This document shows positions 3,971 through 36,504 of a stretch of DNA of 64,000 nucleotides, in pieces. The notes under the pieces are model-generated. The model was not told where the DNA came from. It made no database searches and saw only the letters and a list, made by a program, of their open reading frames with translations. Position numbers and translations under genes: made by a program. This DNA comes from Cordilura impudica (lineage: Eukaryota > Arthropoda > Insecta > Diptera > Scathophagidae). Position 1 is the stretch's first letter. Every line of letters begins with the position of its first letter. Location: contig OY821520.1 of NCBI GenBank assembly GCA_963682025.1, positions 179,308,626 to 179,372,625 on the forward strand, in the 5' to 3' direction.

Positions 3971-4000
3971 AACATTAAAAGTTAAATTTAATAAATCAAT

Positions 4001-13503: not shown

Positions 13504-13511
13504 GTATATAT

Positions 13512-13996
13512 TAGGGCGGGTCGATTTAAAAATCGCCCATTGCTCAGTGAAAATCGTATTCTAGGGATCAAAATAAGAAACTTTGCCGAAGGAACCATAC
13601 CTCTAAAACGAATTCTGATGTCCCAACTTTTGACCTGTCTGTCTGTCTGTCTCACTTTGACCCATTTAGAGTGCCCCAATCGAGTCCAAATGTATGATTG
13701 ACCCCCCTAACTTTGGAGGGCCGACTCACTCATACCAGTGTCACACCCCCTGGAACTCCCCTGTGGGGTTCCCCATATAAACATTTAAAAAAAATCACCA
13801 TTTTTGGCACTTTACATGAAAAAATCAGCGAAATTCCTATGTTTTTTTTCTCTTTATTTTTATTTATTTATTTATAATAATATTTATTATTTATTTATAA
13901 TAATATCTATTTTTTCTCTTAAGAAATTTATTTAGTCAGAACAAATGTAAATGAAAAAATTAATGAAGTTTAGTTATAGAAAAGAAACTAAAAAAA
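13512..13996 (+). repeat. Left terminal inverted repeat of TE-A
   Basis: It matches the reverse complement of about 27385-27797 through the landmarks 'gctcagtgaaaatcgta', 'gaaggaaccatacctctaaa', 'gtctgtctgtctgtctcac', 'tgattgaccccccta' and 'aaatttatttagtcagaaca'. An extra AT-rich stretch near 13800-13915 is absent from the right arm. The repeat runs right up to the transposase stop codon. Confidence 0.85.
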
Positions 13997-13997
13997 A

Positions 13998-15738
13998 TTA
14001 TTGTTTGAAGTCTTTTTTACTTTCAAGTCTGGGCAATTTCGCACGGCTCTCTAATGTCGTCGCCATAACAGCCTCTACATTTTCCGGTATAACCCGTTTG
14101 GAAACGCTAGCTAGCAATTGAACATGTCGTTCCGTTCCTTGTATGTGTGATGGAATTTTTGGATCATTAAACGGTGGATCATCTTGATTTAAATATTCTT
14201 TCAATGTATCGTACGGAATGCTTCGCGTGAATGGTGGTTCAAATACGTTATTTATGTCATTCATATTGATCATTTCCGTGTAACTTGTGCAATTAAAGTT
14301 TATATCTGGTTTTTTATAAGCTCTAATTTGCGTTGGGTCGTCAGCATCGGTTCGATAGCGTAGAATTTTCTTGATAGCACAGTCGCGCTTTTCTTTGCTA
14401 TCATCAGACAACATTGATAACAAGATATTTTCCGAATGCGCATAATATGAATTATCTTTAATTACTTGATTGACAATTTTCCGTAAACGAGGTTCTAGAA
14501 ATCGTGACCAACCAATGAACTTGAAAAATAATGCACTGCCGTACACGACAGAGCTGTAATACTTGATATTCAAGTACATTGGCACATAACATTTAATTAT
14601 GAATTCAACCAGAATTCTTAAATTTACATCTGGATTTTCCGTTGTCACATATAATCGTAATAATCTAGCGGCCTTGGTGAGCCACCGAGAATGTACAATT
14701 TTCCCTGGTTTGATGTTAGCCAGATCCACCGAAACCACGCCGCTAGAAATTGCATGGGCCTTGTCGTATAAGTACTTCGAATCGGTGGAAAATTCAATTT
14801 TATCTGGAGCAAGGGGCATATTTTGCAACTCAATTTTCTGGAAGCCGTCCACCACCTGAAAATATATAATAATAAAATAATTAATAATGGTTGACAATTA
14901 TAATAAATGAGTGATAGCAATAACTTACCGGAATAGTTTCACAAGTTTCGATTTGACGGCTCAGTTTTCCGGTTGCCGATCTCGGTCCAGTGCTGGTTGA
15001 TTTATCCAAAGCTTCAAACAAATGCCGAAACGGAAGTTCGTTGAAGTGTAGAAGGCAAACGAACCAATGCAATGGTATTTTTAACAGCAATTCGAATCGT
15101 CGTATAATTCTACCGTGTGGGCCAGTGTTTGTTGGCTCACCGTCAGTGCATATTCCAATTAATGCATCCAGTGATATATTTTTATCGTTGAAAAAATCAT
15201 TTAATTTGGTTGTTTTGTAATCAGCGGTTTCATGTTCCAGTCTTACGTAACCAATCAATTCAGAATTGGGTTCTCTCAAAATAACAAGATGAGGTTCATT
15301 TACCATCCTAGTATGATACTTCTCATCAATTTTATCTATCGTTAAAGTATCATCTTTTCTGCCATCGAATGAAAACGCTAACAAATTGGTATCATCTAAC
15401 CGTTTGCGAAGCACTTCTTGTCTGCATTTCTCTTTTTCTCTGCGAAATTTCGATTTATCCATGATGAGAGGTTTCCCATGCTTATCCTTAATTTTAAAAT
15501 CTTGAAAAAGAGCGGTTCCCAATGCTGATGCTACTCTATCAGGCACACCAAATCTGTCACATACCAAGGCAAAGTTAAAACAATCGTATCTCTCTGTGTA
15601 TTGTGAACTTGTGTTTCTGTCCATATCTTCTTGAACCGGTGGCGGTGCGTATGTTGAATCATCGGGATGTTGGTATGTCGGCATTGATGACATACACGTT
15701 GCTCCTTGCTCTTCAATTTCCATCACAAATGCATCCAT
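13998..15738 (-). CDS. Transposase-like protein of TE-A, two main exons
   Basis: Exon 15738-14929 (270 codons) and exon 14855-13998 (285 codons plus stop) join in phase 0 across a 73-bp intron (CCG|GTAAGT ... TTTTCAG|GTG), giving 555 residues. I recognise a multicopy arthropod family, usually left uncharacterised. The blocks are CDRFGVPDRVASALG, a basic KFRREKEKCR, SFDGRKDDTLT, GICTDGEPTNTGPHG, LHWFVCLLHFNELPFRHL, HSRWLTKAARLLRLYV, and a YYAHSENILLSML tail domain. Acidic residues in DGRKD and CTDGE followed by C..H.NELP.RH recall RNase-H-fold transposases of hAT type (inference). No stop or frameshift is seen in these exons. A further N-terminal exon lies at 18328-18660. Position next to the left inverted repeat supports a transposase role. 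Confidence 0.75.
14856..14928 (-). other. Intron of the TE-A gene
   Basis: A 73-bp intron with donor GTAAGT and an acceptor preceded by an AT-rich, T-rich tract ending TTTTCAG. Removing it joins two long frames of one protein family in phase 0. Confidence 0.85.
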
Positions 15739-15739
15739 T

Positions 15740-16290
15740 GTTAGTCTTCTCTTATTATGTTGATCGTGCTGCTTTCAAATCGCATTTACATGTTCCAATT
15801 GTAACAACGCAAATAACACTTGCATTGTACATAACAGGCATCACCAAAACCAACCAACCACCCAACAACCATACAATAAAGAAATCCACCGTACTACATG
15901 TAATAAACAACATTTACCTACATCAACATACACGCACAACCACACATCATTTCAAAATAGTAAACATCTACGTCACAGCTGTAAAAATATACGTTCAACC
16001 AAACATGAACAAAACCAAGCTCCCATACAAACAACATATGATACATATACACAACATGCGAATAATAAGAAACTTCAGCCTGCTAAAAATAGACATCGAG
16101 TGGTTAAAACAAATTGTATGTTACAATTCTCACTAAGTTAATAAATTAATTTAGATAAGAAGATAAGGTTGGCCTGAGTAAGGAATTGATTTTTCGGCGC
16201 TAAAGCTGAACGGTATATCTTACTAAAAGATATTTCCAACCTTTTAAAGACGATCGGTACCGGTTGTCATCCATATTAATCCATATTAAT
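15740..16290. other. TE-A internal noncoding stretch
   Basis: It contains the upstream edge of the main exon (a possible acceptor ...GAAAGCAG near 15765 on the minus strand), AC-rich sequence and a short inverted motif 'tatcttactaaaagata' at about 16213. A plus-strand frame at 15603-16136 overlaps the real exon and is not supported. Confidence 0.5.
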
Positions 16291-16905
16291 CTTAACGGCT
16301 GACTGCTCCCGATAATCCAGCGGCTTAACGGCTGACTGCTCCCGATAATCCAGCGGCTTCACGGCTGACTGCTCCCGATAATCCAGCGGCTTAACGGCTG
16401 ACTGCTCCCGATAATCCAGCGGCTTAACGGCTGACTGCTCCCGATAATCCTGCGGCTTCACGGCTGACTGCTCCCGATAATCCAGCGGCTTCACGGCTGA
16501 CTGCTCCCGATAATCCAGCGGCTTAACGGCTGACTGCTCCCGATAATCCAGCGGCTGACTGCTCCCGATAATCCAGCGGCTTCACGGCTGACTGCTCCCG
16601 ATAATCCAGCGGCTTCACGGCTGACTGCTCCCGATAATCCAGCGGCTTCACGGCTGACTGCTCCCGATAATCCAGCGGCTTAACGGCTGACTGCTCCCGA
16701 TAATCCAGCGGCTTAACGGCTGACTGCTCCCGATAATCCAGCGGCTTCACGGCTGACTGCTTCCGATAATCCAGCGGCTTCACGGCTGACTGCTCCCGAT
16801 AATCCAGCGGCTTAACGGCTGACTGCTCCCGATAATCCAGCGGCTTAACGACTGACTGCTCCCGATAATCCAGCGGCTTAACGGCTGACTGCTCTCAAAT
16901 CCAGC
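16291..16905 (-). repeat. 33-bp minisatellite, about 18-19 copies
   Basis: The unit is 'cttaacggctgactgctcccgataatccagcgg', alternating between 'cttaacgg' and 'cttcacgg' variants. One unit near 16553 is shortened. On the minus strand it stays open and would encode KPLDYREQSAV repeats, but it lacks a plausible start, lies in the presumed intron of the TE-A gene and is better read as a tandem DNA repeat. Confidence 0.9.
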
Positions 16906-18130
16906 GGCCTGTGCTGACTGCTCCCGACTAACGCCGCTCTTATCATCACAGGTGGCCAAGACACAGCACAGCTCACGACAGCAACTCTAGTCGCACTACC
17001 GCCTTCTGCCGGCTGCTGACGCTCTCCCGACCGGTCGCGCCATCGACTACCTGTATGCCCGAGCCACGCCACCTACTGTGCCGCCACCTGTCTGCCAGTG
17101 TCAACACAACACCGAAATCATCAAGCGGCGCATCTAAGCCATCTACTGTGCCGCCATCTGCCTGCTAGCATAGTCGTGCCAGGCCACCTACTGTGCCGCC
17201 ATCTGTCGACCAGTATCACCGCACTCCTGATATCATCAGCCGGCACATCCACGCCACCCACGGTGCTGCCATCTGCCTGCCTGTGTCATCGCACTGCCAA
17301 TACCATCAGCCGGCGCACCAAAGCCACCTACTGTGCCGCCATCTGTCTGCCAGTAGCAACGCAACGCCGAAATCATCAATCGGCGCATCTAAGCCATCTA
17401 CTGTGCTGCCATCTGCCTGCTAGCATAGTCGTGCCCGGCCATCTACTGTGCCGCCATCTGCCTGCTAGCATAGTCGTGCCAGGACACCTACTGTGCCGCC
17501 ATCTGTCGACCAGTATCACCGCACTCCTGATATCATCAGCCGGCACATCCACGCCACCTACGGTGCCGCCATCTGCCTGCCAGTGTCGCCGCACTACCAA
17601 CACCATCAGCCGGCGCACCAAAGCACCTACTGTGCCGTCATCTGTCGGCCAGTAGCAACGCAACGCCGAAATCATCAAGTGGCGCATCTAAGCCATCCGC
17701 TGTGCCGCCATCTGCCTGCTAGCATAGTCGTGCCAGGCCACCTACTGTGTCGCCATCTGTCGACCAGTATCACCGCACTCCTGCTACCATCAGCCGGCAC
17801 ATCCACGCCACCCACGGTGCCGCCATCTGTCTGCCAGTAACAACGCAGCGCCGAAATCAGCAATCGGCGCATCCAAGCCATCATACGACCGATCACGCCG
17901 CCACCTGTTGGCCAGTAGTCGCACCGCCCGTCGACCGACGCACTCCAGCATACCACTACGCTGCCATCCGTCAGCCAGTAGACGTAACGCCTGTCGCTCG
18001 ACGAACCCGAGTCAACCACTACGCCATCACCTGCCGGCCAGTAATCGCGCCACCTGTCAACCACTGCGCCGCCATCTGTCGACCAGTATACTCGAGTCAC
18101 AAGCTACCGGCTAGCATAGCCGACCTCCCG
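16906..18130. repeat. GC-rich higher-order tandem repeat
   Basis: Diverged units of about 60-65 bp ('tgtgccgccatctg(t/c)c(g/t)(a/g)ccagta...atcatcagccggc(a/g)ca') are ordered in larger blocks. The phrase 'aagccatc(t/c)(a/g)ctgtg' recurs near 17134, 17391 and 17689. Long frames on both strands follow from the repeat and its GC content. I do not count them as genes. Confidence 0.8.
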
Positions 18131-18327
18131 ATAATACGAAAGCAGAACTGTTGTCAGTCGCGTCTTCAAACGTATATAGATACATATAATCATATATACA
18201 CAATTAGCACTTAAATAAACTACTTTGTAACTAAAAGGTTTATAGTGTTTTATTGCATAAGGTTTGAGGGTCCTTAGGCTGACCCTGGAGACGACTGAAC
18301 TACCTCAGCCGTCGATCAAAATCCTTG

Positions 18328-18660
18328 TTATACAATGTAAAAAATTGTTTCCAGAGATTTTACATACTCTGTAAATTTTTGGGTTTTGTTTCGTCTCTTG
18401 ATTTGGTCTTGATATTTGTCAAGCAATCTATTCAATTTATTACATACACTTTTTTCAGCATTATTTACATACCAAGTTTTTCCCAAATTCCAATCAACTT
18501 ATCTTGTACTTGAATAGTGAATGATTTATAGGAAAACTTTTTTTGTTCTGTTTTAGCACGTTCGCTTAAGTAAAAATAATATCTGAAGATATCCAGATGG
18601 GTTGGTAAATTAAGATCAATCAAATCAGTAGACACACCAAAAACAGTAACATCATGCTTG
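18328..18660 (-). pseudogene. Probable N-terminal exon of the TE-A transposase, cut by E2
   Basis: The minus strand encodes KHDVTVFGVSTDLIDLNLPT, a YYFYLSERAK...FSYKSFTIQVQDKLIGIWEKL helical stretch, and then, after a one-base frame change near 18475, SVCNKLNRLLDKYQDQIKRR...SLETIFYI. From memory the N-terminus of the same arthropod family has such a helical, DNA-binding-like region ending in a comparable LF.I motif, so I join it to the 13998-15738 gene (inference). E2 is inserted at 18665, a few codons into this segment. The nearest frame on the other side of E2, read through one ggta copy, continues for some codons. Confidence 0.5.
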
Positions 18661-18664
18661 GGTA

Positions 18665-19255
18665 AGTTATTTCTTTTTATAATTAAAATAAAAACAATGT
18701 TTTTCTGTTGAGTGTTCAATATCAACTGAACTTTATTTTTCATTTCTTTTCTATTTAAAACTAAAAACTAGTGTTTACAATATTGCTGCCCATTTCAAAT
18801 TTGGGTCTTTCTTAATTTTAATACTTAAAATTAAATAGTATTGCCCACTTGACAATTTTTGGGTCTTTTCTGTTAAAATAACAAAATAAATAATTTATTG
18901 CCCACTTGACAATTTTTGGGTCTTTTCCGTTAAAATAGCAAAATCAATAATTTGTTCTTTTTATGGACAACCTAATTTCAAGCGAAAGAACAAAGTACTG
19001 TTGCGACACATAGTGTAATATGAGACGCAACAATTATAGTTTACATTATTCCCTCGCTTACAAATCATATTATCGATTGGTTTCTGATAAAAATATTTTA
19101 CTGTTGCGACACACAATGCAATTTAGCCACAAATCAATTTATTGAACCCAAACAAATTGATAAGCAAAGCGAACACAGCAAACAGAAGAAAATAAAAAAA
19201 GAAATGGGAGGGAGTATTCAGAATTAACTAAACAAAAATGTTTTGTTTGTTAACT
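18665..19255 (-). repeat. E2 3' LTR
   Basis: 591 bp, pairing with 26584-27173. It contains duplicated 'attgcccacttgacaatttttgggtctttt' blocks (about 18840 and 18899) and repeated 'ctgttgcgacaca' motifs. Confidence 0.95.
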
Positions 19256-19265
19256 CTTCCCCACT
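19256..19265 (-). other. E2 polypurine tract
   Basis: On the minus strand AGTGGGGAAG directly precedes the 3' LTR start AGTTAAC. It is the same arrangement as in E1 and E3. Confidence 0.8.
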
Positions 19266-19285
19266 AAAATTTTGATTGTCCTCAA

Positions 19286-20796
19286 TCAAAAGAAAGGTAT
19301 TTGAGAGATCCTCGACACAGGGTATTCTCTCGGCTCGTTTTCATTCAAGGTAATATTCTGCGGTGGTAGTGGAGTATTGATATTAATAATTTCCGACCGC
19401 TTAAATTCATTTCTATTACACAGTTTTTTCAAACAGACGGACAGTATTATGCCGGTTATGAGAACCGCTAAAATGTAGGTAATGGCATCACCTATTTTGC
19501 TTTCCATATTTAGAAGCTCTATTGCCTCTGTATTGTTTGTATGCATCTCCTTAATTAGTTCCAGCGTGAGAATTTCTTCCACGTGTGGATTGCCTATGAT
19601 TGGTTGTACCACTGCTGGGAGAACGTTAGAAAAATTAATTTCAGAATATGAAAAAGTTTTATCACCGATTGATACGGTTTCATTGTGGAATTTAATGATG
19701 AAAGTGCCATTTAAATCATATGGTTCTTGGCTTATCAGAATCGTCCCACTAAATTGATTCAGTAAAAGCGTACCAGGAAATATTTCCTGTATTGTGGGTA
19801 TATGGAAGTTACTTGCCAATGTACAATTAGAGGGTTTACTGTGTATTAAATTGGGGAGGCATTCAGATTCGCTGATATCCTCGATATCTTCGTCTTTGCA
19901 TATGGTCAACTTGTTGTAGTTCTTACAATTGTTTTTTAATCCAAACACCTTCTTATCACAAACCAATATTTCGTCAAACCCAATCTTAGTTACAACCCTA
20001 TTAATCTTTATAGGCCTTATAAGTAATTTGGTACATGAAACATTGTGGGTTGTGGGTACACTAACAATATAGATCAGGGAATTGTCGCTAGAAGCAATTT
20101 TTACCTCACTAAACTCTAATATTTCTTCCATATTAAGGTATGGAATTTTATTATTTTCATATAGTTTCTTTACGGTTTCTATTTCATCATGAGACAGAAT
20201 AAACGAGTTAATAACACCCACTTTTGCCCAGTGGATGGCGTATTGTAAATTTATTATCTCTTCTTTTACTATTTCTAATTTGTATTTTAATTCGGTAACG
20301 TCCAAATTTCGAAAGGTCTGTACATCCTCTTGCACAACCTTTATTACATGATTCATCTTGGATGTTAACTCGTTGATTTTGTCTAGATAGTTTATTGATT
20401 ATTACCTGTTTATTGTTGTTTTTTAATACCTTATTTGTCTTCTGTGTTAGTATTTCGAAGTCGTCATGGTCAGGGCTTCCTGCTATCCATTTCCATGCCG
20501 AACCTATGAAGTTGAGAGATCTTTTTGATCTAGGTTTCAGCTGATCTAGTTTGTTTTGCAATTGGGATAACTCATGATCGAGGAAAGGATGTAAAGGATG
20601 GGATGTACTTATCTTCGCAGTTACTGTCGCTTTTGTGTCGTCGATAAACCTCTGGTAATTGTCCAATTCTATCTCATGTATCAATTTTACGGACCCCATT
20701 TGGAGTTTTGCTATACCTGTGTCAATCGCCACAATTCGTGAACTAGTGTGGTCTAAAATCTTTACCTCGTTCTGGACAAAGGGCAACAAGATTGCA
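19286..20796 (-). pseudogene. env: E2 envelope glycoprotein (one frameshift)
   Basis: The env exon begins at the acceptor near 20797. An upstream part (to about 20390) has a hydrophobic signal-like start, an R-S-K-R furin-type cleavage site followed by a hydrophobic FIGSAWKWIAG stretch and the SPDHDDFEIL block. A second open frame (19286-20356) continues with a coiled-coil-like region, Cys-rich ectodomain, N-glycosylation motifs, a membrane segment near 19440-19500 and a polar tail. A frameshift near 20385 separates the two, so no full-length Env can be made. The layout is the same as E1 env, in which this point is intact. Confidence 0.85.
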
Positions 20797-20812
20797 CTAA
20801 AAAAAAAATAAA
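20797..20812 (-). promoter_or_regulatory. Probable env splice acceptor, E2
   Basis: A long T-tract ending TTTTTTTTAG immediately precedes the env exon on the minus strand. The ATG at 20855 lies upstream of this AG, so it may belong to intron sequence rather than start Env. Confidence 0.6.
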
Positions 20813-20851
20813 AAAAGAAAAAACAAAAGTGAAAGCAAGGTAGAAATTCTT

Positions 20852-22153
20852 TCATTTACGGATGTTGTTTTTGTGAACCACTCTTCCGGTATTTGTCAGA
20901 ACAGTGGTGTGTCTGTTTTCCTTAACTATCTCCTGCTTATAATTCTTGCTCAGTTTAGTCCCTAACCTCTTATTTTGTTTGACGAAAATCACTTCCCCTT
21001 CCTTGTAACTCTTCGGTTCTTCCCTACGGTGATTATGATACTTCAGATCGGATAATTGTCGATTCTTGAAGTCCTCTATCATTTTAATCATATCTTTTTC
21101 CCGTTCGAGAGGATCGCTCGATGACCTTTTACAAAAAAATGCATCATATGGTTTTCTTCCCAAGGTTGAATGAACAGTGTTGTTATATTCGTAAGTAGAT
21201 TTATCCAAGAGTTCGGATAAGTTACCATGAGCTCCCTTTGATTTGATGCATCTCATAATCTCGGAAAGAGTGGAGTGGAACCTTTCTATTTGTCCGTTAA
21301 CCGTGCTGGCATATGGTGGGATTCGGAAAACCTTCACGTTAAATTGATTTTCCAGCAAAAATGTAACAGCTTTAGAAGCAAAGGATTTCTCGTTATCCAT
21401 CACAACCATTTCTGGCATACCGAAGTTTAAAAGTGTTTCTCTTAGTGGTTGTTTAATATCTTCCGTCGCTCTTGATTTAAGTATCCTCGTCTGGGCGTAT
21501 TTTGTCAACTTATCGATTGCCGTCAGGATAGAAGTACCTTCCGTGATATAGATATCGATGTGTATTATTTGGCCAGGATACTGTGGGATAGGGGTCTCCT
21601 GTAGATAAATATTATTGGGGTGTCTCTCGTATTTATTCTCTTTACAGACCTTACATGATGCCACTATTTTCTTTATTTTCGCGGACATTTGTGGGAAATA
21701 GCATCTGTCAAGAAGTTGAGCTTTATTTTCACTGGCATCTCTATGAGCTCTATTGTGTTCATTTATGATTTCTATCTATTGATCCGACTCACTAAGGATG
21801 TCGGTTACCATGTTTCTTGTGTAGAGGAATTTATATTTGTGAAAGTTAGAAGAATATATTTCCTGAGCTTTTCCCAATATTTCGTTGGTTGTTTTCACGC
21901 AGTTTGTTACCGAAGGATTCAAATATTTAGTAAAGATTTCCTTCAATCTTTTCTCGGAAAGATTTGGTTCCAATATGACATGTTTATGATACGTTGGAAA
22001 TACAATTTGGAATTCATATGACTGGGTTTCGCTCGGTTCTATGATGAGTTGGTTTTTGAATGCGTTTATTGGGGCAATTGTATGTTGGATGAGATTTCGA
22101 GGTAAACTCTGGTTACTGTGCTGTGTAGCGTTTGTTGAGGTAATCTCGAATAT
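20852..22153 (-). pseudogene. pol: E2 integrase
   Basis: This is in the same frame as the 22154-23962 polymerase, separated from it by an in-frame stop at about 22154-22156 and interrupted by another at about 21776-21778. It shows an HHCC zinc domain (HNRAHRD, then CKVCKENK), the catalytic core (HIDIY near 21555, VMDNEKSF near 21395, NGQIERFHS near 21285) and a C-terminal basic domain that ends at 20852 just before env. From 21688 to 20852 the frame is open for 278 codons. The stops are point changes, so the copy died recently. Confidence 0.88.
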
Positions 22154-23980
22154 TTACTGTGGAGGTCTAGAGAGTGCGTCTGCTACAGCATTGGTGTTGC
22201 CAGGTTTGTATAATAATTCGTAATTATACTCCTCTAATATTGCTTTCCATCGCCTGAGTTTGCTGTTAGTATTTCCATTGCTCAGAGCATGCGTTAGTGG
22301 TTGATGATCCGTAAAAATCTTTATTTTCGTCGCTCCATAGAGGTAGTTTCTTAAGCTTTTAAGGGCCCAAACAATTGCTAACATTTCCTTTTCGTTTGTA
22401 GCGTAGTGTTCCTCGGTTTTACTGAGAGTTCTTGAGATAAATGTCACGGGTCTACCATCCTGTTCCAACACAGCTCCGATCGCATAATTGGATGCGTCTG
22501 TTGTCAGTCGGAATTCTTTTTCAAAGTTAGGGTAAGATAACATAACATCCGCTGATGTTAATGTTCTCTTGATTTTATTCAGTGCTTCTATGGCGTTGTC
22601 ATCTAGTGTAATGTTAATTTTTTTTGAAACATTCTTGGACATTCGTCCCTCTTCCCCTCTCAAAAGAGCCGTTAAAGGTTTTGCCAGTTTGGCATAATCC
22701 TTAATAAAACGGCGATAGAAGCCTGCCATACCAAGGAAGGACCTAAGATCTTTAAGCGTTCTCGGTATCGGGAAATTGTTGATTGCTTCTACTTTTTTTG
22801 GGTTAGCCTGTATTCCCGTTGTGGATATCACGAACCCTAGGAATTCGACTTCCGACTTTAGAAACTCGCATTTGTCGAGCTGGACCTTCATGTTAGCCAT
22901 CTCCAAGGTGTGGAATACTTGTTCGATATTTTCTAGGTGGGATTTCTCGTCCTTGCCGAAAATAATTATATCGTCTATATAAATATAGCAGATTTTTCCG
23001 ATGTGCTCACGCAATATGTCGTCGAGGGCTCTTTGAAATATCGATGGTGCATTTCTCAATCCGAACGGAAGTCTAGTAAATTCGTATTTGCCGTTGTTGA
23101 TCGAGAGCGCGGTTTTTTCTATGTCCCTTTCATTCAAGGAAATTTCGTGAAATCCACTCTTCAAATCCAAAACGGGGAAATATTTATTTTCACCCAACTG
23201 AGAGAGCACCTCATTAATTTCCGGGATGGGGTATCGGTCGGCGATTGTGACCGCGTTTAATTTTCTATAGTCGATAACTATTCGGTATTTCTTTTTACCT
23301 GAAGCGTCTAGTTTTTTTGGGACCACCCATACCGGCGAATTATAAGGTGATTTTGAGGGCCTTATAATACCCTGGTCCAACAATTCTTTAATTTGGATTT
23401 CCACTTCGTCCTTCAGATGCATAGGGTATGGGTAACATCTAGAATATACGGGGTTGTCGGTGGTGGTTCTAATTTCGCCTTTTACTGAAGTTGTGTAGGT
23501 CAGGCTCTCATTTGGTTCTGAGAATAGGTTGGGATATTTTCCTATAATTTCTTCAATTTTGTTTTCTTGTTCGGCTGTCATGTGTTCTGTTCTAATATTT
23601 ATAGAATTGACTGATTGAGAAACCTTCTGTTTTAAATTTATTTTGATATGACCTTTAATAATCATATAACTTCCTGCTGCGTGAATAATAGCTGCTAATT
23701 CTTTGAGGCTATCGTTACCTAATATTGCATGGTATGATTTTAATGAAGGCAGTGAGAAAAATGTAATGTCCGATCCAAAAAGTTTAACAAATGTGTGGTG
23801 TGCTACCGGGGTTTTGCCTCCTATGGAGTTAGCATAGAAGTTGATGTCATTGGGTATTGATTTTTTTATCAAAGATGTTTGTACGTAATTTTTGTTCGAC
23901 CCAGTGTCGACAAGTATTTTGAGTATTTCGCCGGAGCTCGTCTTAGCCTCGAAATACGGCAATGACGAATTCGCTAATCT
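22154..23980 (-). pseudogene. pol: E2 protease, reverse transcriptase and RNase H
   Basis: The 602-codon open frame (22154-23962) is entered from gag by a presumed -1 shift at 23980. Protease: LVDTGSNKNY near residue 20 and LGNDSLKE near 80. RT: VIDYRKLN, LDLKSGFHEI, LPFGLRNAPS and the catalytic YIDDIIIF near residue 328. RNase H: LTTDASNYAIGAVL, NEKEMLAIVWAL, TDHQPLTH and ADALS, all residues expected in Ty3/gypsy RNase H. Up to the stop after ADALSRPPQ this polymerase looks complete. Integrase follows in the same frame beyond that stop. Confidence 0.92.
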
Positions 23981-25447
23981 AAAAAATGAATGTCAGCGAA
24001 TTGTTGATCTTCATTAAGGATTTCGTCGACATGTTCTCCGCCTTGACCGTCAAGGTAGTCTTGCATGTCCTGGAGGTCTTCGTCTGTGCCACTAGCCAGT
24101 AAATGGTTGTTATAGGCTTCGAAGTGGTCTTCGTTGCAAGAGTTATTACCTTGATTGTCTGTTTCCCAGTCACCAGCATTTATATGGAAGTTTCTTTGGA
24201 ATTTTTGAGGTTGTTGGTATGTATTATCAGGGGGCCTTTTCCCTGAGAAATCGGTATTTGGTCGTAGTCTATTCATGTAGTTGACTGCTCTGGATTGCAT
24301 TGAGCGGTCTACGTCCATGGGTTCTGGTCTCGGTAGTGGTTTGGGGCCAAACGGTCTTTGTGGTGGATTATTTGGACGAAAATTTCCAGGTTGATTATAA
24401 GAATTTGATGGTGTGAATTGTTGTGGTTGTCTGCTGAAGTTTTGATGAGGGTTATGTTGTTGTTGTGGTTGTCTGCTGAAGTTTTGATGAGGGTTATATT
24501 GCTGTTGTGATTGTCTGTAGAAATTTTGGGCTGTTGAAGGCATGTGTGTTGAGGTGTGGATGGAATTGAGGTCTTGTAAATGTTGATTGTGGGAATTGTG
24601 GTTTCAAGTTTTTCGGAGGTAAATGTGGTTGGACCCTAGTTACCCTATGGGTATAGGCATGTTGAGCCCTATAGTTTTGATTTTCTAATTTGAGACATAA
24701 GTGTAATGCTTGTGGAAGATCTGCCGGTTCTCGAATTCCTAACAAACGCGGTAGGTCTCCTATGAGTCCACGAACGAAGGTGTCTAATGCTTTGTCGCGG
24801 TATGTCTGTGTCAAAAGGTCCATAGCCGCTCTGCCATTGTCCATACAGGCGAGTTTGTTCATTATGAGTGAAAGGTGAGAATAAACCTGTTGGTAAAATT
24901 CCTGGATTGAGGCACTTGCTTGGATCAAAGTTGTCATTTGGTATTCTAATGTTCCGAGATCCCGTTTATCCGCGTAGTGTAGAGTAAGGCATTTTGATAT
25001 GCAGGTCCAATTAAGGGGAGTATTGTATGACTCTAAAGCGGCGTCTGCTGGGCCTATGATTTTATTTCTTACTACGTTGAGAATTCTGTAGTATTTTGGT
25101 GTTCCTCTGGTTGATTCATACAATTTAAGTACACGTTCTACACTTTTTTTCCAAGAGCTAAATTCGGAAGGATTGCCCGAAAATTCCCTTAAACATCGTA
25201 CTACATCTGGTACCTTGTCTAGGTCAGTTAAATTCTCCAAATATCTATCTTCGATTTCTTGGTCTATACCTGCTATGGATGCGCCAGGATTTAGAATCTC
25301 CCTAACTAGGTTGTTACATTGTTCCCTACATAGTCTTGTTACTACGTCTGTCACAGTGGCCTCCAATTGAGGATTCATATTGGGGGGATCGATTTGGGGA
25401 TTGTGAACTAAGATTGGGGGTCTAATCAGATTATTTTGGTTGGCCAT
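23974..25447 (-). pseudogene. gag: E2 gag (one frameshift)
   Basis: The first frame (25447-24494) carries the capsid-like part with REFSGNPSEF, PKYYRIL and ESYNTPLNW blocks matching E1 Gag. The second (24543-23974) carries a Gln/Pro/Asn-rich tail with two copies of a PHQNFSRQPQQ repeat, a PMDVD motif and an acidic end. The frames overlap and change near 24540, a single indel. Gag ends at TAG 23974-23976, six bases past a slippery heptamer. There is no zinc knuckle, as in E1. Confidence 0.88.
23980..23986 (-). promoter_or_regulatory. Candidate -1 gag-pol frameshift heptamer T TTT TTA
   Basis: On the minus strand the gag frame reads CAT TTT TTA GAT TAG. A simultaneous -1 slip on T TTT TTA puts the next codon at 23980, exactly in the pol frame that is open into protease. 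I did not model downstream RNA structure. Confidence 0.6.
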
Positions 25448-25449
25448 AA

Positions 25450-26572
25450 ATTTATAGTATGTCCTTCTCTTTAGAAGTAAGTGTTAAGTTTCCTCTTTTA
25501 TTTGAAAAAAAAAAAAAAAATATTTTAAATTCAAAAATTTCCTTTAAAAAACATAACGTTGTTTTTCCTTTCCAAAGAAAAGGTTTGAAAAAGAATTATT
25601 TCGTAAGATTTTATTATTAGGTTTAAATGTGTAACATATTATTTTTACTTTCTTGTTTGGTTAATTTAAAAGTTTTAATATCCTATTAGTTAAAAATATC
25701 TCTTCTTATTCTTTAAGATTAATAAAAATTTTCTTTTAAAAGTGTACCATAAATTTTTTCTTGTCAATAAAGTAATTACAATTTTTTTTATTTCTTATTT
25801 TATGACTTACATTAAAATAATTGGTATATATTTCATCTTAAGTTGAGTTTGGTCCGGTTTGATGTTGAATTTTATGTTGATGTACTTAATTTGGTGTCGG
25901 TGTTTTTAAATTGATGTTGGTGCTTCTTTGCTGCCCAGGCAAAATCGTTGCCTGGTGACTGTGTTGTTTTCTTTCTCCTTTTAAGTTGAGTTTACAATTT
26001 TTGTCTCTTAGGTTAATGTTTTTATTAGGGTTTTTTTTTTGTTTTTTGTTTTATTAGATTTAAATTTTAAAAATATTTCTTGTTTTTAAGTTGTAGGGCT
26101 ATTAAATGCAATAAAAAAAATTTATCAGAGTTCCTCTTATAGTTTTATTCAATAATTTTTGTATTTTGTATATTTTATTTAAAAATTTCTTGGGTTAAAT
26201 GTTATTATTTATTATTAGAGTTCTTTTAGCATTAGAATTTTTTAATTTTAAAAAAGTTTTTTCCTTTTTTTCTTTTTTAGAAAATATTTATGGGAGTTTT
26301 TATTTTGGAGTCTTAATGCACTTCTTTAGGGCTTTTTAAAACTAACTGCACTTTTTAGCTTTTAGATTTGAACTATTAAATGCACTTTTTTAGTTTTGCA
26401 CTACTTTAGGGCTTAGTTTTGCACTACTTTAGGGCTTTTTTCAGTTTTGCACTACTTTAGGGCTTTTTTTTATATTAAATGCACTTTTTAATTTTAATTT
26501 TGCACTTATTTTAACTTTTACCACTATAATCCTTTGCACTACTTTAGGGCTTCTAAGGATATGTGGGTTTTT
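25450..26572 (-). other. E2 leader between primer binding site and gag
   Basis: Long AT-rich 5' untranslated region with short repeats of 'ttttgcactactttagggctt' (four or more copies, about 26390-26550). No coding frame is seen. Confidence 0.7.
26390..26552. repeat. Short tandem-like repeats in the E2 leader
   Basis: 'ttgcactactttagggct' recurs near 26396, 26417, 26446 and 26535 with variable spacing, next to the 5' LTR. Confidence 0.7.
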
Positions 26573-26584
26573 TGTTGGGCGCCA
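26573..26584 (-). other. E2 primer binding site (tRNA-Lys type)
   Basis: On the minus strand the LTR end T is followed by GGCGCCCAACA. TGGCGCCCAAC is complementary to the 3' end of insect tRNA-Lys, the primer known for gypsy. Confidence 0.75.
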
Positions 26585-27173
26585 GTTATTTCTTTTTATA
26601 ATTAAAATAAAAACAACGTTTTTCTGTTGAGTGTTCAATATCAACTGAACTTTATTTTTCATTTCTTTTCTATTTAAAACTAAAAACTAGTGTTTACAAT
26701 ATTGCTGCCCATTTCAAATTTGGGTCTTTCTTAATTTTAATACTTAAAATTAAATAGTATTGCCCACTTGACAATTTTTGGGTCTTTTCTGTTAAAATAA
26801 CAAAATAAATAATTTATTGCCCACTTGACAATTTTTGGGTCTTTTCCGTTAAAATAGCAAAATCAATAATTTGTTCTTTTTATGGACAACCTAATTTCAA
26901 GCGAAAGAACAAAGTACTGTTGCGACACATAGTGTAATATGAGACGCAACAATTATAGTTTACATTATTCCCTCGCTTACAAATCATATTATCGATTGGT
27001 TTCTGATAAAAATATTTTACTGTTGCGACACACAATGCAATTTAGCCACAAATCAATTTATTGAACCCAAACAAATTGATAAGCAAAGCGAACACAGCAA
27101 ACAGAAGTAAATAAAAAAGAAATGGGAGGGAGTATCCAGAATTAAATAAACAAAAATGTTTTGTTTGTTAACT
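26584..27173 (-). repeat. E2 5' LTR
   Basis: 590 bp. It is the direct-repeat partner of 18665-19255 and holds the promoter side of E2, which is transcribed toward lower coordinates. Confidence 0.95.
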
Positions 27174-27189
27174 GGTATATGACTCATTG

Positions 27190-27385
27190 GGTTTTCGATA
27201 GTTGTTGATGTTGTTGTGGCTTAAAAACCCACACAAGCAATTTTACGACCTGCAATTGTGTCACAGTGATACGTTCATTTTTTAAAAGGGTTGAATAAAA
27301 AACCCACACAACTAAGTTTACGACATGCAAATGCATCACAGTGATGCCTTGGTTTTAAAAGGGTTATAAAAAACGCAAATTTCTA
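27190..27385. repeat. Two 85-bp subterminal repeats of TE-A
   Basis: 'aaaaacccacacaa.(c/t)aa.tttacgac(c/a)tgcaa.tg..tcacagtgat.c' occurs near 27222 and 27308, each followed by 'ttttaaaagggtt'. They lie just inside the right inverted repeat, where transposase binding repeats often sit. That function is inference. Confidence 0.55.
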
Positions 27386-27797
27386 ATAAATTTTTTTAAT
27401 TTCTTTTCTATTACTAAGTTAAATTCATTTTATCATTTACATATGTTCTGACTAAATAAATTTCTAAAGAGAAAAATAAACTCCAAAAAGAAAAAACATA
27501 GGCATTTCGCTGATTTTTTATATGGGAACCCCACAAGGCAGTTCCAAAGGGTGTGACACTGGCATGGGTAAGTCGGCCCTCCAAAGTTAGGGGGGTCAAT
27601 CATACATTTGGACTCGATTGGGGAACTCTAAATGGGTCAAAGTGAGACAGACAGACAGACAGGTCAAAAGTTGGGACATCAGAATTCGTTTTAGAGGTAT
27701 GGTTCCTTCGGCAAAGTTTCTTATTTTGGTCCCTAGAGTACGATTTTCACTGAGCAATTGGCGATTTTTTTGCCTCCACACAAATCGACCCGGCCTA
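27385..27797 (-). repeat. Right terminal inverted repeat of TE-A
   Basis: Reverse complement of the left arm at 13512-13996, with the same landmarks in the same order. It ends ...AAATCGACCCGGCCTA at 27797. Confidence 0.85.
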
Positions 27798-27802
27798 GTA
27801 TA

Positions 27803-29428
27803 TATACTGTATCTCACAGAAATAAGTTTCCATGGCATCATTATATCAATAACGCACTGTAATATTTAAAATATTTGAAAACTTACATTGGCATGTGTTT
27901 TATTTTCAAGAACCGTTATCTAGCCGACTAATGGCGCCGGCAGAGCAGCGGCAGCTCAGGGTTTGTTTATATATTCCACGTTTTTTGCTATCAGTTGAGT
28001 TTTTGGCGTTACAGAAGTAAGTTTCCAGAGCAAAAAAATCATTAGTTCTCGTTCAGTGGCCATAAAAATATAACAATTTGCTTTCTAAATTGTGTAATAT
28101 CACGTTTTAAAATAAAACATAAAAAATAAAACCAAACAATCATCAAATTTGTAAGATTTTTAATAAATTAAATTCTAACCTGGAATAATTAGTTTTTATA
28201 ATTTTTTAGGCACTTCAATGGGAAAATTTAATTTGGCAGAGCGTAAGGCTATAATTGAAATGCATAAAAGTGGCGATTCTCACAGAAAAATTGCTAACAT
28301 TTTCAAAAAATCACATACAACTATCGGAAATGTTATTCGCGTATTCCAACAACATTTGCGGGTATGCCCTATAAAATGTGCAGGTAGACAAATAATTACA
28401 TCGAAAAGGGTTGTGGATAGAATCATCACTATTTCCAATACAAATCCATTAATTTCGGTGCCAAAAATTCGTGCCAAATTACAAAGTGAAGGCTTCGAAG
28501 TACCATCAGCGCAAACTATACGAAGAAGATTGCATGAAGCTGGCAAGCATGGACGTGTTGCAAGAAAAATTCCTTATGTTAGCAAAGCAAATTTGAAAAA
28601 ACGAATGGAGTTTTATCAAAATCATGCCTTAAAAACTGATGAATTTTGGAAAACTGTACTTTGGACAGATGAGTCCATGATTCGCTTGAAGTACTCTCAT
28701 GGCAGAATTCATGTATGGAGAAAGAAAGGAGAGTCATTGTCGTATAAGTGCACTAAGCCTACGTTTAAGGGATCAGAAAGAGGATTAATGGTATGGGGTT
28801 GTTTATGCACAAATGGAGGAGGGAAATTAATCACTCTAGAAGGTAAAGTGAATGCCGACATTTATTTAAATATTATAAAGGCAGTGGCAATACCGGAAGG
28901 AAGGAGACTAATAGGAAATGCATTTATACTACAAGATAACGCTCCTATCCACACCGCCAAAAAAGTAACAAAATACCTAGAAGATGAAAATATTAATATT
29001 TTAAAATGGCCATCGCAAAGCCGATTGAGAACGTTTGGGCAACTTTGAAACTACGGATTTCGCAGGAAGCGCCACAAAATATTACACAATTAAAAAATTG
29101 TGTCAAGGAAACTTGGAAAAAAATTACACCAGAGGAATGCAAGAAACTTGTTACAACCATGGATGACCGTTTGTCAAAAATGTCGACCAGAAATGGTGGA
29201 CATTGTGGATACTAAATTACATGGAAACTTTCTTATGTAACGTAATTTAAGTTGTTTTTTATTTTATTACTTAATATCAGCGAAACGGCTGAATTTATTC
29301 TTACCTTTTGTCAAATATTGGATATGTACTTTAATTTAGTGATTTAGCAATTAAACAATTTAAATAATAAATAAAAGTTATGTTAATTTGAAATTTATTT
29401 TATCGTGTGGAAACTTATATTGTATATA
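27803..29428 (+). mobile_element. Tc1-like transposon, inactive
   Basis: A Tc1-family transposase gene sits between imperfect inverted ends. On the left is TATATAC...ATAAGTTTCCA (27803 on), and on the right, read on the minus strand from about 29428, TATATACAATATAAGTTTCCA. Length is about 1.6 kb, usual for Tc1 elements. Its left end abuts the TE-A target duplication. Confidence 0.65.
28218..29214 (+). pseudogene. Tc1-like transposase with an internal deletion
   Basis: The first frame (28218-29048) has the paired helix-turn-helix N-terminus (LAERKAIIEMHKSGDSHRKI and an RRRLHEAG second domain). The catalytic core follows, with first Asp in LWTDES and second in LQDNAPIHTA. Near 29015 about 11 bases are missing, so the conserved PDLNP motif before the catalytic Glu is lost and the frame changes. 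The rest (PIENVWATLK with the Glu, to HCGY at 29214) is in another frame. Together they would be about 330-335 residues, normal for Tc1 (DD34E). Apart from this break the gene looks recent. Confidence 0.9.
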
Positions 29429-29429
29429 T

Positions 29430-29870
29430 GGGGGTTTCATGTCACGTGACCCAACTTTTGGAAGTGTTTTCATATAAAACTCCAGAAAGATGTGCTGATT
29501 TGGGCTAACATCAGTTGACTCGAACAGTATGTCAATAGGAGACAGGTATGAGCAACCTGACCAATTTGTATTCTTTTCCGATTCGTGCGAGGTTGACGAC
29601 ATATTTGAAAAATTAAATAACATTAGCCTTTTCGTAAATGTTTGCGAACCGTTTATACATTCTTATTTATACATTTTCTTAATACTTTTCTCTCACAGAC
29701 TTCCAATTTCTTTGCCATTGTCGGACTTTGGAGAGATAAATCTTCGTTTTTTAGGGAAGATAATTGTTATTGATTAAGCCGGAAAACATGCCAGATATGC
29801 GATTAGCCTTTGAAAGGAGAGGTCTGCCATGATTATTGAAATTCATCATTTTGTCAAAGTTGATCTGGGG
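29430..29870. other. No gene recognised
   Basis: An open frame at 29529-29777 (82 codons) has no recognisable domain. The rest is AT-rich. Confidence 0.4.
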
Positions 29871-29872
29871 GA

Positions 29873-30600
29873 CTAAAACATTTGCCAGAAGCATTTCTTA
29901 GCACCAAGGTGAAAGGCAGTATTTCTTAGCGCCTGTATAGGAGATTCATCGTGCGAATAAATTATACAATCATCAGCATATAAGTACATATATTGGTTTC
30001 CCCATGAACTAAAATGTTCATCAAATGAGTAAATTTGACGTGGAACAGCAACAACACATGATAAAATATACAAGACTCCAGATTTTCAATGGGTCTTTCA
30101 CTAATTTAACCGCTCTTTAAAATGTTCGGAAATCTCCGAATCATTAGATTTGGTAATTTTGTCTACCAAGAGATGTTTACAAAACGGAGACTTTCCTCTC
30201 CCCAATATTTGATATATTTCTTTAATGGAGGAAGGACAATAATGACATTCTTGGGTAAAAGCTATGTCAATTTTGTTGTAAAATAAGGTGTTGAACAGAT
30301 CGATTTGACGACTAGTGTTGATTAGGGGATGACGTTGAAGGATAGAGAATTAATACATATAAGGCCCGTAAATATTTTTAACTTTGTTAAGTAGGCGCAA
30401 AAATTCGGGTTTAGCCTCTGACGTTTTTATAATCAATTATAAATGTATTTATTTCTCGTTCTAGTGACAGCTCTTCTGGTTCAAAGAAGTATTTTGAGAG
30501 GTTTATAAATTCATCGATGATTGAGGATTTTTCCTGCCCAGGAACGTGTATTTTGATTTATTTGTGAGTTAAATAAACTCGCAGTATGACATACCTGGAA
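29873..30600 (-). pseudogene. LINE ORF2 remnant (endonuclease-like piece and RT box)
   Basis: The segment 30073-29873 encodes YLYADDCIIYSHDE, the YADD box of a non-LTR RT, with flanking sequence. Upstream on the same strand (about 30360-30110) a frame reads RQIDLFNTLFYNKIDIAFTQE, like the start of an apurinic-type endonuclease (DIAL.QE block). The region between is deleted or scrambled. The YADD call is firm and the endonuclease call tentative. Confidence 0.55.
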
Positions 30601-30869
30601 GTGCTGTGGATGAGTTAATTACTTTGCCAACGTTGTGTTGTACCATAGCCTTTGCAACACGAGAATTATTCACACACACTCTTTTACTGTTCAACTATTT
30701 ATTTAAGCAGCCCCTCTAATTCGCTAGATTCGCCACAGTTCATGCGAATTGATATTCTGGGATATATGGTCCCAATGCTGACACCTATTGCACTGGATTT
30801 CATGCTCTCATTTGGGCTTTTTCCCACACAATTGGCTGGTTAGGTTAGGTTAGAAGTGGTTGCTAATCC

Positions 30870-31573
30870 AAAGGAAAAGCACACTTAGACTCTGGGGTCC
30901 ATTGCGATACCACGAGACGAATAGGTGTTCTCCTCAGTCCCCACCGTAGAGCTCCTGATGAAGCTCCTGATATGTGAAATTTCCACATTTGAGAGATCGT
31001 GAAGAAAATGCGATCCCAATGTTCGAAGTCTCGTTCTGGAGAGCGCCGGGCAATGGCAAAGGAAGTGTTCTATACTCTCCACCTCCTTCACATCCATGCA
31101 GCTACGACAGAAGTCATTTGACGAAACCCTGCCCAGTGATAACAGCAACTACCGTTGAAATCTCCATACGGGGGAGTGATAGTAGCGCACTAGTGTGCTT
31201 ATGATTCAGAGCCGGACAGATTTGTCTCGCGATCCTACACGTTGATCCATTAGCCCATCTGTTATCCAGCGGTCTGAAGCCGAAGTTCCAGCTTGCACGA
31301 TTCCAGGGGAGTACCAACACATTCCAAGTCCGCTGGAACCCGTAAGGTAGTGCCCTGTCGTGCCAGCTCATCAGCTTTACAGTTTCCCGGTATATTCCTG
31401 TGCCCTGGGACCCATATGAGTCTGATATCAAACTGCTTGGCCATCTCATTTAAAGACGTGCGGCAGTTAAGGGTGCTTCTTGTTTTCGGGAACATTGATT
31501 CCAAGGATTTTACCGCGGCCTGACTATCAGAGTAGATGTTGACTGCGGTTGTAGACAGAATATTCCGCCCCAA
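30870..31573 (-). pseudogene. LOA/I-type LINE RNase H and C-terminus
   Basis: The segment 31573-31265 encodes an RNase H half: VNIYSDSQAAVKSL (catalytic Asp) and WVPGHRNIPGNCKADELARQG (His and Asp). The segment 31148-30888, in another frame, encodes the C-terminal zinc-like block FCRSCMDVKEVESIEHFLCHCPAL. RNase H followed by C-x2-C...H...C is typical of LOA- and I-group LINEs. A frameshift around 31200-31260 separates them. The RT lies outside or is lost. Confidence 0.8.
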
Positions 31574-31599
31574 CCAGTCAGCAACTTTCTTTATTTAGG

Positions 31600-32760
31600 A
31601 ACTAACTGAAAGGCACTTGAATATTCAGAGTTAATAAAAAGGATGAAATATCTAAAATATTAAAGAAAAACAACTATAGGAACGAACTGAAAGACACCTG
31701 TGTATAATAAATTAAACTAAAAATTAAAAATTTTAAAACATAAATTAAAAACTAAAAACTTGAATTAAAAATTGAAAACCTGAAATCTGAAAATTTAAAT
31801 TAAAAAAATTGAAAAGCAATTATAAAAAAAATTTTTTGAAAATCGTTATTTGAAAAAAAAAAAATAAAGATTTGATCGTTAATATTTGAAAAAAAAAATT
31901 GGTCTGATGTAATAACAAATTTAGTAAATAAATATTAAAGTCTGAAAAGTGGTATTAAAATTAGTTATAATTAAACTTAATAAGAAGCAAAAAAAAATAT
32001 ATTAGAATATAATAGATATAAACATATAGACTTGAATAAACGAATATTTTCTCAAATATATCTAAAAAAAAAATGGGTAAAAAACTATCAAACTGTATAA
32101 AAACTACATTTAGGTTTCTGAACATGAATAATAACTATATTTAGTGAGTGATTCAAACACAATCAAACTGTATAAATACTGATTCGAACAGAAAAAAAAA
32201 AATTTAACTAAGAATATATAGATGGCACTTATTTTGTAATCTTTCCTTATCTGGTAACTTTATTTAAATAAAAAAATGTATAGTATCGTTTTAGGCTTAA
32301 ATAAATGATAATATAAATTTAAATGATGCCACCTTATAAAATATATTAATAAATAATGAAAAAGTCGGTAAACCTGTTAAACATAACGCTAAAATAACGG
32401 GAAAGGAGTTACGAATCTGCTAAATAATGGGTAAAAGGTCAGGAATATGCTAAATAATGAAAAAAAAGGTTGATGAATCTGTTAAAATAATGCTAAATAA
32501 CGGGAAAATTCAAACTTAACGGAATAAGAAAATGGTGGTAAGTTAAAAGTGTAGGTAAAACTGCATTTAGGTTTGTGATTTTGCTGAAAAATAGTGTTGC
32601 CAACCTAAAATGGTATGATGCATCCAAATGTACTAGAAAAGTGATCCAGAAGGTACACAAATATACTACTAGCTATACTAATAAGTATATTTGTTTGTTT
32701 CATTTACTATATTGCTTCTTCTGTTTATGTATTTATATGTGCAGATAACAAGAAAGTGCA
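31600..32760. other. AT-rich stretch without genes
   Basis: Poly-A rich, with runs such as 'aattaaaaactaaaaact'. Loosely repeated phrases ('aaataatgaaaaag', 'aaactgtataaa', 'ctaaataatgggtaaaaggt') occur near 32080-32540. No coding motif is seen. Confidence 0.6.
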
Positions 32761-32839
32761 ACTAATTGAGTTCTTATTATTTATTTCCACTTGAATTCAG
32801 TAAAGTTTTTGTTTTTAATAGAGAACAACAATTACGTAC

Positions 32840-33640
32840 AATTTCGTCCGCACGCAGAGATATCTTTGTTAGAGAGATCTTTGTCAGATTTGATATAGTT
32901 AAAACGAATGTATTGGCTAGATCATTTGTATGGAGGCCTAACCTAAACAGTGAAATTGAAAAATTGATTAAGACTTGCATGTCATGTCAAAAACTCATAG
33001 CTAGTCCTGAAAAAAAAAGTTCACTAATACCGTGGAGACCTACAAGCTCTGTGCAGGTCCAATCAGAAATTATTATTTTTTTGAGTTATAGATTCGTAAT
33101 TTGTATGGATAAAAATTTTTAAGACAAAGGAAATTACTTCCAGTTTTGTAATTACGATATTAAAATTCCTATGATATTAAAAATTTAATTTCTAAAAATA
33201 ACGTAAAACAGCTCCTGTACATCCAACTACTAATGGCCAAGCTGAAAACTTTAAAGAAATCTATAAGTATATGCAAATTTAAACTCTGAGAAAAACGAAA
33301 GTATTGACTTAATTTTGAATAGATTTTTAATGGATTATCGTAATACCAAACATAATTCAACTGAAGAAAGCCCAGCGAAAATTTTTATTGGAAGTTTGAT
33401 CAGAACACGATTTAGTTTTAATAAACCTCCTCTTATTAAAGCAACAAATAAAAAGCATGTCAAATTATAAAGGTAAAAGATCTGTAACTTTTTAAAGAAT
33501 CAAAATGTTTTTATTAGAGACTACATAAATTTATAAAAGATTAAAAGATTAAACTGGTCCACGTTCATATCAGTATGCTCTTTCGACTGGTAGAATTACA
33601 AAAAGACATACTGATCAGATTAGAGCAGGAATATCTGAAA
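32840..33640 (+). pseudogene. Gypsy-type integrase remnant
   Basis: The frame 32766-33122 contains the integrase zinc region (ARSFVWRPNLNSEIEKLIKTCMSCQ). Further on, in broken frames, come a TTNGQAENFK block (about 33225, catalytic Glu side), NTKHNSTEESPAKIF (about 33350) and a C-terminal GPRSYQYALSTGRITKRHTDQIRAG (about 33555). The order fits one Ty3/gypsy integrase. It differs from the E1-E3 integrases (CQ, TKRHTDQIR end), so it is another family. Many stops are present. Confidence 0.7.
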
Positions 33641-33699
33641 GCCAAAACGTTAATAATGATCTCCAGAATAACCATCATATTAGGAGGAAACAGTTGAAA

Positions 33700-34000
33700 A
33701 GTCACATGATAATAATATTTTTTTAGAAGCGAATAACAAAAATGTACATGAATAAAATTCTAAAATATAAAATGGAAATATAAACTTAAATAAATAATAA
33801 TGAAAACTTTTCAAATTAAAGAAAAGAAAAAGAAAAAAATTTACGAGGGCATTAAGACCCAGAACAAATAAAAAAATATATAGGTATATATAAATATGTA
33901 TATATTAGTATATATACTATATAAACCTATATAGTTTTTTTTATTAAAAATATAACTAAAGAAATTTTACAGAATTATATATATATAATATATTTATATA
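33700..34000. other. AT-rich, no gene
   Basis: Poly-A and (TA)n tracts, ending in the TA-rich left flank of the repeat at 34004. Confidence 0.5.
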
Positions 34001-34003
34001 TAT

Positions 34004-34395
34004 TAGGATGGGTCAAATTGTAGAGGGCCGAAAAATCTCCATGGGTTCATCGCGATTCTGGTACTATGGGCCATAACAAGTATATTTGCCCCACGAACCA
34101 TACCTCTAAAATAATTTCGAGCCTACTAAAATTTCGATGAAGATATTTTCATGATATTTTCCATAATACTCTTCATATGTAAAAAATTATTGAAAATGTG
34201 TATAATGGGGGGTTTTTGGGTCGGAAAATCCATTTTTCACATTTATTTTTATCAGCCGCATTTTTGTGGATTTTTTTAACCTTTTTGGGGAAAATTGACG
34301 AAATTATTGCACAAATTGACGAATCTGTGACTTTCCCATATTTAAAATAGACCACAATATTCAGCGCTGAAAATTATGTGGGGTACCCATATACA
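34004..34395 (+). repeat. TAGGATGGGTC repeat related to the TE-A inverted repeat
   Basis: It starts TAGGATGGGTC in a TA-rich flank and has 'gaaccatacctctaaaa' about 100 bp in, the same phrase at about the same distance as in the TE-A arms. It also has 'ggggtacccatata' near 34380, resembling 'ggggttccccatata' of TE-A. The rest differs. It is probably one arm or a short nonautonomous relative. No opposite arm was found. Confidence 0.45.
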
Positions 34396-34499
34396 ACCTA
34401 TATCGATTTCATTCAATTTAAGTCAAAAAATTCTTTTTTTTTATTTACTCTTTGAATGAACAAATATAAAATACGAATTGTTGGACTTAAAAGTTAGTT

Positions 34500-34645: not shown

Positions 34646-34664
34646 CGATGAGCTCATTATTTTA

Positions 34665-34850: not shown

Positions 34851-34859
34851 TAATTATTC

Positions 34860-36490: not shown

Positions 36491-36504
36491 TCTGCTAAAG
36501 GAAA

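Follow-up and report, generated by a model that had tools for sequence, protein, structure and literature searches.

Introduction

Transposons of the hAT group, among them Hermes of Musca domestica, carry short inverted repeats, given as 10-25 bp in the excerpt of PMC3942097 and as 17 bp for Hermes in the excerpt of PMC10368747, which also gives the hAT target pattern as nTnnnnAn. Mutator-like elements (MULEs) are characterised in the excerpt of PMC5225508 by arms of >100 bp, target site duplications of 8-10 bp, a CH motif and a W. The recombination signals of V(D)J joining are outlined in the excerpt of PMC7204232 as bipartite signals with spacers of 12 or 23 bp.

Here we describe a nested composite element found in a stretch of 64,000 nucleotides of the fly Cordilura impudica (contig OY821520.1), called the window throughout. 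The element is a cut-and-paste transposon copy that is no longer intact and carries two foreign inserts, and very probably it is a DDE transposon of a deeply diverged hAT-related insect lineage, the working of its dissimilar end spacers (about 63 and 75 bp) being putative. New here are the plan of the ends, a tip and a subterminal box, and the inequality of about 12 bp between the two ends, in copies from one genome. A literature search found no paper naming the family or the 63/75 spacing; subscription papers lay mostly outside that search and Repbase was not covered, so that both may already be described. A literature search with six 11-mer tip strings returned, among the matches listed and as judged from these entries, no transposons of this kind.

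Organisation of the composite and its copies

The outer bounds of the composite are two tips, at 13512 and 27797, lying inside an identical 8-bp duplication (Table 1). The original prediction of a nested composite with inverted arms was borne out. The tips read TAGGGCGGGTC and GACCCGGCCTA, and the arms pair over an outer block of 246 nt (96% complementary) and, further in, over one of 92 nt (88%). Native elements are about 3.1-3.7 kb long, 11 copies with both tips measuring 3.1-3.6 kb. Removal of E2, a gypsy-type long terminal repeat (LTR) element, does leave a length of about 5.8 kb, as predicted; of this length, 2,533 bp belong to another insertion and not to the native element.

Table 1. 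Features of the composite element, in window coordinates
Feature	Position	Strand	Remarks
Left target duplication	13504..13511		gtatatat
Left long arm	13512..14002	+	491 bp; 3' side of gene; short-spacer end
Left tip	13512..13527	+	TAGGGCGGGTCGATTT; other families similar
Left subterminal box	13575..13605	+	63 bp from tip
Exon 2 of transposase remnant	13998..14855	-	
Intron	14856..14928	-	GTAAGT...TTTCAG
Exon 1 remnant	14929..15738	-	starts at internal Met; bears two putative catalytic Asp and CxxH
Third-layer insertion	15796..18336		insertion 15800-18332, 2,533 bp, CAAT on both sides; minisatellites, 33-bp and longer
Detached N-terminal coding part	18334..18660	-	matches P0003 residues about 23-134
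E2, gypsy-type LTR element	18661..27177	-	reverse transcriptase/RNase H, integrase and env in separate interrupted frames; ggta on both sides
Coding part beyond E2	27174..27201	-	our reading: ENPMSHI on the reverse complement, found also in P0002
Right long arm	27385..27797	-	413 bp; 5' side of gene; long-spacer end
Right subterminal box	27692..27722	-	75 bp from tip
Right tip	27782..27797	-	TAGGCCGGGTCGATTT
Right target duplication	27798..27805		gtatatat

The genome scanned comprised 1.486 Gb in 855 contigs and gave at least 143 matches to exon 1, a lower bound with 142 of 2819 candidates scored. The 29 top-scoring gene loci besides the window (L010-L038, with L033 and L034 included) were analysed for arms; the gene was flanked by at least part of both arms in 23 and by one arm in the other six, and no gene copy without arm sequence was seen among these loci of this genome. 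Another seven loci, picked up with the arm as sole query (the best by identity, window excluded), all carried the gene and none had arms bounding unrelated content, although shorter gene-less derivatives may escape such a sample of top identity matches. Both results agree with the assignment of arms and gene to one element in the original prediction. A chance origin of the composite is excluded, because the arm-gene-arm layout recurs in the genome. Three equal-scoring gene copies (L032-L034, C2:173297488 onward) were spaced by steps of about 4.02 kb and form an apparent tandem array.

The search with P0024 revealed further families, and arm and core served to sort them, with that of the window as F1, into F1 to F6, the cores being 55-71% identical between families. 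Aligned arm blocks of the other families ranged from 110 to about 400 bp, in keeping with the unusually long inverted repeats that had been proposed for the lineage. The F5 copies L069-L072 were 99.6-99.7% identical over 3.1 kb, 23 rows of the P0024 search stood at one score (324.4 bits), and both exons were open in three of the four F5 copies read; such near-identity suggests recent movement. The F2 core (L052, L058, L065) was 77-78% identical to a protein of the gall midge Contarinia as against 64-68% to F1, and judging from these identities a horizontal transfer of F2 would be possible. F6 (L063, L067) was 81% identical to a Bactrocera protein.

Target site duplications

Analysis of the 22 elements with both tips revealed an exact 8-bp duplication in 17, of which six were pure AT repeats and uninformative; without pure AT repeats the duplication was exact in 11 of 16. 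An informative set of 14 elements, which leaves out the six pure-AT elements as well as L019 and L036 (one flank a pure AT repeat, both mismatched), contained 11 exact duplications as against 5 of 182 mispaired flanks. When one mismatch was allowed the values were 12 of 14 and 31 of 182, near matches being common among mispaired flanks since the targets are AT-rich. L056 together with its far arm L073 gave an additional exact duplication, while L050, and L068 with L076, lay in AT repeat. The four F5 copies read had two exact informative duplications, one off by one base and one in AT repeat. The target profile was approximately RTRTAYAT and fits nTnnnnAn: of the 11 exact informative duplications, all 11 have T at position 2 and 9 have A at position 7.

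These data also bear on whether a host gene was trapped between unrelated repeats, a reading to which we give hardly any weight. Among the listed matches of the window protein no homologue has a functional name, and a protein family of this sort could be a host family; against this stand at least 143 matches to exon 1 in one genome, the arm sequence present at every one of the 29 copies, the target duplications and the sister families of the same plan.

The gene remnant and its inserts

The original prediction had described a 555-residue two-exon gene. The spliced two-exon frame of 555 aa is indeed present and reaches about 5 bp into the left arm before it stops, but it is an N-terminally truncated remnant and not the whole gene. 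Its top protein match was from Rhagoletis zephyria, with 93% identity across the whole query. The gene is broken in three ways: the 2,533-bp insertion splits off the N-terminal part, E2 lies in the coding sequence, and about 47 nt near 15768, present in other copies, are lost as computed by copy comparison.

E2 interrupts the transposase coding sequence, since an N-terminal coding part was found at 18334-18660 and coding sequence again beyond E2. Its LTRs are direct repeats (18665-19255 and 26584-27173) that are 99.15% identical over 591 bp. The predicted insertion of E2 with its own ggta duplication was confirmed, as the E2-free junction with a single ggta was found in 28 of the 29 other gene copies and was lacking in L022, with at most 6 substitutions and 2 each of insertions and deletions tolerated in the search. 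The 2.5-kb insertion (15800-18332) has the termini TGTAACAACG...CCTTGTTATA. It was absent in 13 of the 14 copies compared, in which the sequence at 15769 resumes at 18333 within about 75 bp, and the fourteenth copy, L022, is without that region.

Predicted fold and affiliation of the transposase

Structural comparison of the predicted models of two homologues showed Hermes as the top VIA match, and in Foldseek Hermes was the best or second-best molecule. The predicted models have an RNase H core with a helical insertion as in Hermes, the insertion fitting Hermes better than the P element. An alignment of 96 proteins revealed that D296, C401 and W499 (P0003 numbering) were invariant while D372, H404 and E683 were at least 90% conserved, with a distance of 311 from the second D to the E; D, D and E, with CxxH and W, are thus conserved, and their catalytic roles are putative. 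A Cys cluster, CKC...CxC, was common in the N-terminal part of the homologues.

The gene of the window is most likely the transposase of its element, as had been predicted, because its copies lie between the same arms, the 8-bp duplications recur and the homologue models match Hermes best. Judged by its predicted fold, its target and its conserved residues, the lineage would work like hAT. It is not classed as a member of hAT, since its inverted repeats are long instead of short and hAT profiles did not recognise it.

Several observations weigh against a hAT affiliation. Pfam gave the window protein no family at E<=1, and among the 96 homologues, for which 25 of 37 families are listed, the hAT-type Pfam matches were PF14372 (E 0.028) and DUF4371 (E 0.097), in one protein each; DUF4371 is a hAT-derived family. 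The Foldseek E-values of Hermes, ISCth4 and the P element were close, and for the full-length model ISCth4 came first (E 4.3e-5). Five of the 22 elements with both tips were without an exact duplication (1, 2, 4, 5 and 7 mismatches). The arms aligned here over 110-490 bp as against 10-25 bp in hAT elements, and long arms are not the hAT norm according to the source excerpts given above.

Further searches gave negative results: a sequence search of solved structures gave no match for the window protein or the profile, a six-frame scan of the window and the loci for a hAT-type C-terminal motif, intended to yield a control protein, found none, no BED zinc finger or THAP domain was among the Pfam matches listed for the window protein's family, and in the viral contigs no relative was found by the tip pattern, the 96-protein profile or the box pattern. 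In P0014 and P0016 an OTU protease domain is joined to the transposase, N-terminal in the alignment.

The first place of ISCth4, a member of the IS256 group, for the full-length model in Foldseek speaks for a MULE, and the element does have both arms of >100 bp and a duplication within 8-10 bp, together with CxxH and W as in MULE transposases. The VIA match to ISCth4 was nevertheless weaker than that to Hermes, and we regard a MULE as improbable. Galileo is another element with long arms, and a diverged relative of its kind in the P superfamily seems to us just as improbable. P-element transposase was among the Foldseek matches (E 3.8e-4 to 1.7e-3), the element has the 8-bp duplication typical of the P superfamily, and the ends of the P element have spacers of 9 and 21 bp that also differ by 12 bp, a precedent that the literature search did not turn up. 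On the other side, no THAP was among the Pfam matches listed, the helical insertion fits Hermes better, and the P element was missing from 50 VIA rows led by Hermes, which was not taken as an exclusion.

Tip, box and unequal spacing of the ends

Seventeen arms were compared, 16 of F1-F6 and a lone arm at 34004 taken as its own family. Similarity between families (238 ordered pairs) clearly exceeded that of shuffled partners in two places, at the tip and where 24-base windows begin at about 45-97; elsewhere it was only slightly higher. The parts mainly common to arms of different families are the tip, TAGGGYGGG..., and a 31-bp box, which forms the core of the second similarity peak and was defined by the pattern AAGAAAATTTGCCGAAGGAACCATACCTCTA together with two variants of it. 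Boxes of the required quality turned up in 39 of 3000 stretches drawn at random from these sequences, arms included, and in 1 of 3000 shuffled ones. The lone arm, on the plus strand from 34004 onward (TAGGATGGGTCAAATTGT...), is diverged and of the same kind, with the box about 74 bp in by alignment, and no partner for it was found in a self-comparison of 28000-42000.

The strict run over 60 loci yielded 73 arms, in which the distance from tip to box was 75 bp in 30, 74 in 4, 63 in 28 and 62 in 4, the distances 48, 56, 60, 61, 64, 66 and 72 occurring once each. All 23 two-arm elements of this run had one long (74-75) and one short (62-66) spacer. Addition of L050, L056 with L073 and L068 with L076, which brings in F4, raised this to 26 of 26 (10, 5, 2, 3, 4 and 2 in the six families), with no long/long and no short/short element among them. 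L050 fails the strict TAG rule, and it was scored together with the two completed elements without the TAG requirement. The count drops L033 and L034 (tandem copies of L032) and L046 and L047 (the same places as L022 and L031), and outside it stand L016 (75/63 in a looser run) and L057 (its tip truncated where the locus ends). Elements within a family are not independent, and the weight of the count lies on the six families, themselves of common ancestry.

When the two arms of an element were aligned, their starts were offset by exactly 12 in F1, F2, F4 and F5; in the two F3 elements, which carry a variable T run, the offsets were 8 and 10. The F6 spacers were 63 and 75. Directly after the tip the long arm has GTATGGA or a similar string. 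Long and short ends were found on either side of the gene, also within F2 and within F4. The two F4 elements L056 with L073 and L068 with L076 have opposite gene orientations relative to their long and short arms, an arrangement that an inversion between the long inverted arms would be expected to produce.

The unequal spacing may be how the enzyme distinguishes the two ends, by a pairing resembling that of the 12/23 rule. We tentatively propose, short of leaning towards it, that a transposase of hAT fold would synapse only a short-spacer with a long-spacer end, the spacers differing by about 12 bp or about one helical turn, and box and tip both being recognised. Such a rule would amount to a free-living counterpart of the 12/23 rule, preserved between families even as the rest of their arms diverged. 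It is also conceivable, if somewhat doubtful, that the difference is an inherited accident without function. All families share an ancestor and a single ancient indel could suffice, some single arms deviate (48, 56, 60, 61, 72), the F3 difference is only 8-10 bp, and an interior inversion between the arms preserves one long and one short end without selection. An accident accords less well with spacer sequences that are barely above background between families while their length is kept, and with arms of one element that are 94-96% identical (F1 window copy, F2, F3, F4) apart from the spacing difference, though arm identity is 83% in L014 and 88% in F5. Nor does it readily account for the lack of long/long or short/short elements among the 26.

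Proposed course of transposition

The native element (about 3.1-3.7 kb) has a single two-exon transposase gene between two long inverted arms, the intact protein having probably some 700-750 residues. On the proposal of unequal-end pairing, the transposase would bind the subterminal box of each arm, and pairing would join an end with the short spacer (about 63 bp) to one with the long spacer (about 75 bp). Cleavage would follow at the TAGGG tips, and then joining to an 8-bp staggered target resembling RTRTAYAT. In the window copy the gene was broken by the 2.5-kb insertion and the env-bearing gypsy-type element, in either order, and about 47 nt were lost.

A large insect protein family annotated only as uncharacterised would gain a function, and the hAT fold would take in a transposase lineage silent in Pfam. 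Should the pairing of unequal ends be true, these elements would offer a simple and testable system for how a DNA recombinase makes two unlike ends pair, the problem underlying the 12/23 rule in the assembly of antibody genes, and the near-identical sister family with open frames would be a natural starting point.

Neighbouring elements

The window also contains gypsy-type remnants with reverse transcriptase, integrase zinc-binding and Gypsy env domains at 2282-5583 and 60144-61759. A Tc1/mariner-type transposase frame (HTH_Tnp_Tc3_2, DDE_3) lies directly outside the composite at 28179-29045 on the plus strand.

Comparison with known systems

The likeness to Hermes and hAT lies in the 8-bp duplications fitting nTnnnnAn, in CxxH and W, and in the top VIA match. 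Unlike hAT elements, the families described here share a subterminal box whose distance from the tip differs between the two ends, and no BED or canonical hAT family is among the Pfam matches listed. Galileo of the P superfamily shares the long arms, while no THAP is found among those matches, one 31-bp box is noted per arm as against repeated sites in Galileo, and Hermes, not the P element, leads by VIA. MULEs such as Muta1 are similar in having arms of >100 bp, an 8-bp duplication and CxxH with W, as described in the excerpt of PMC5225508, whereas the distance from the second D to the E is 311 here and 136 in Muta1 according to the same excerpt. Compared with the V(D)J signals the spacers are 63/75 instead of 12/23, the sequences are others, the pairing is putative here and no homology is claimed; the likeness is one of plan, with two conserved parts and one of two spacer lengths about one helical turn apart.

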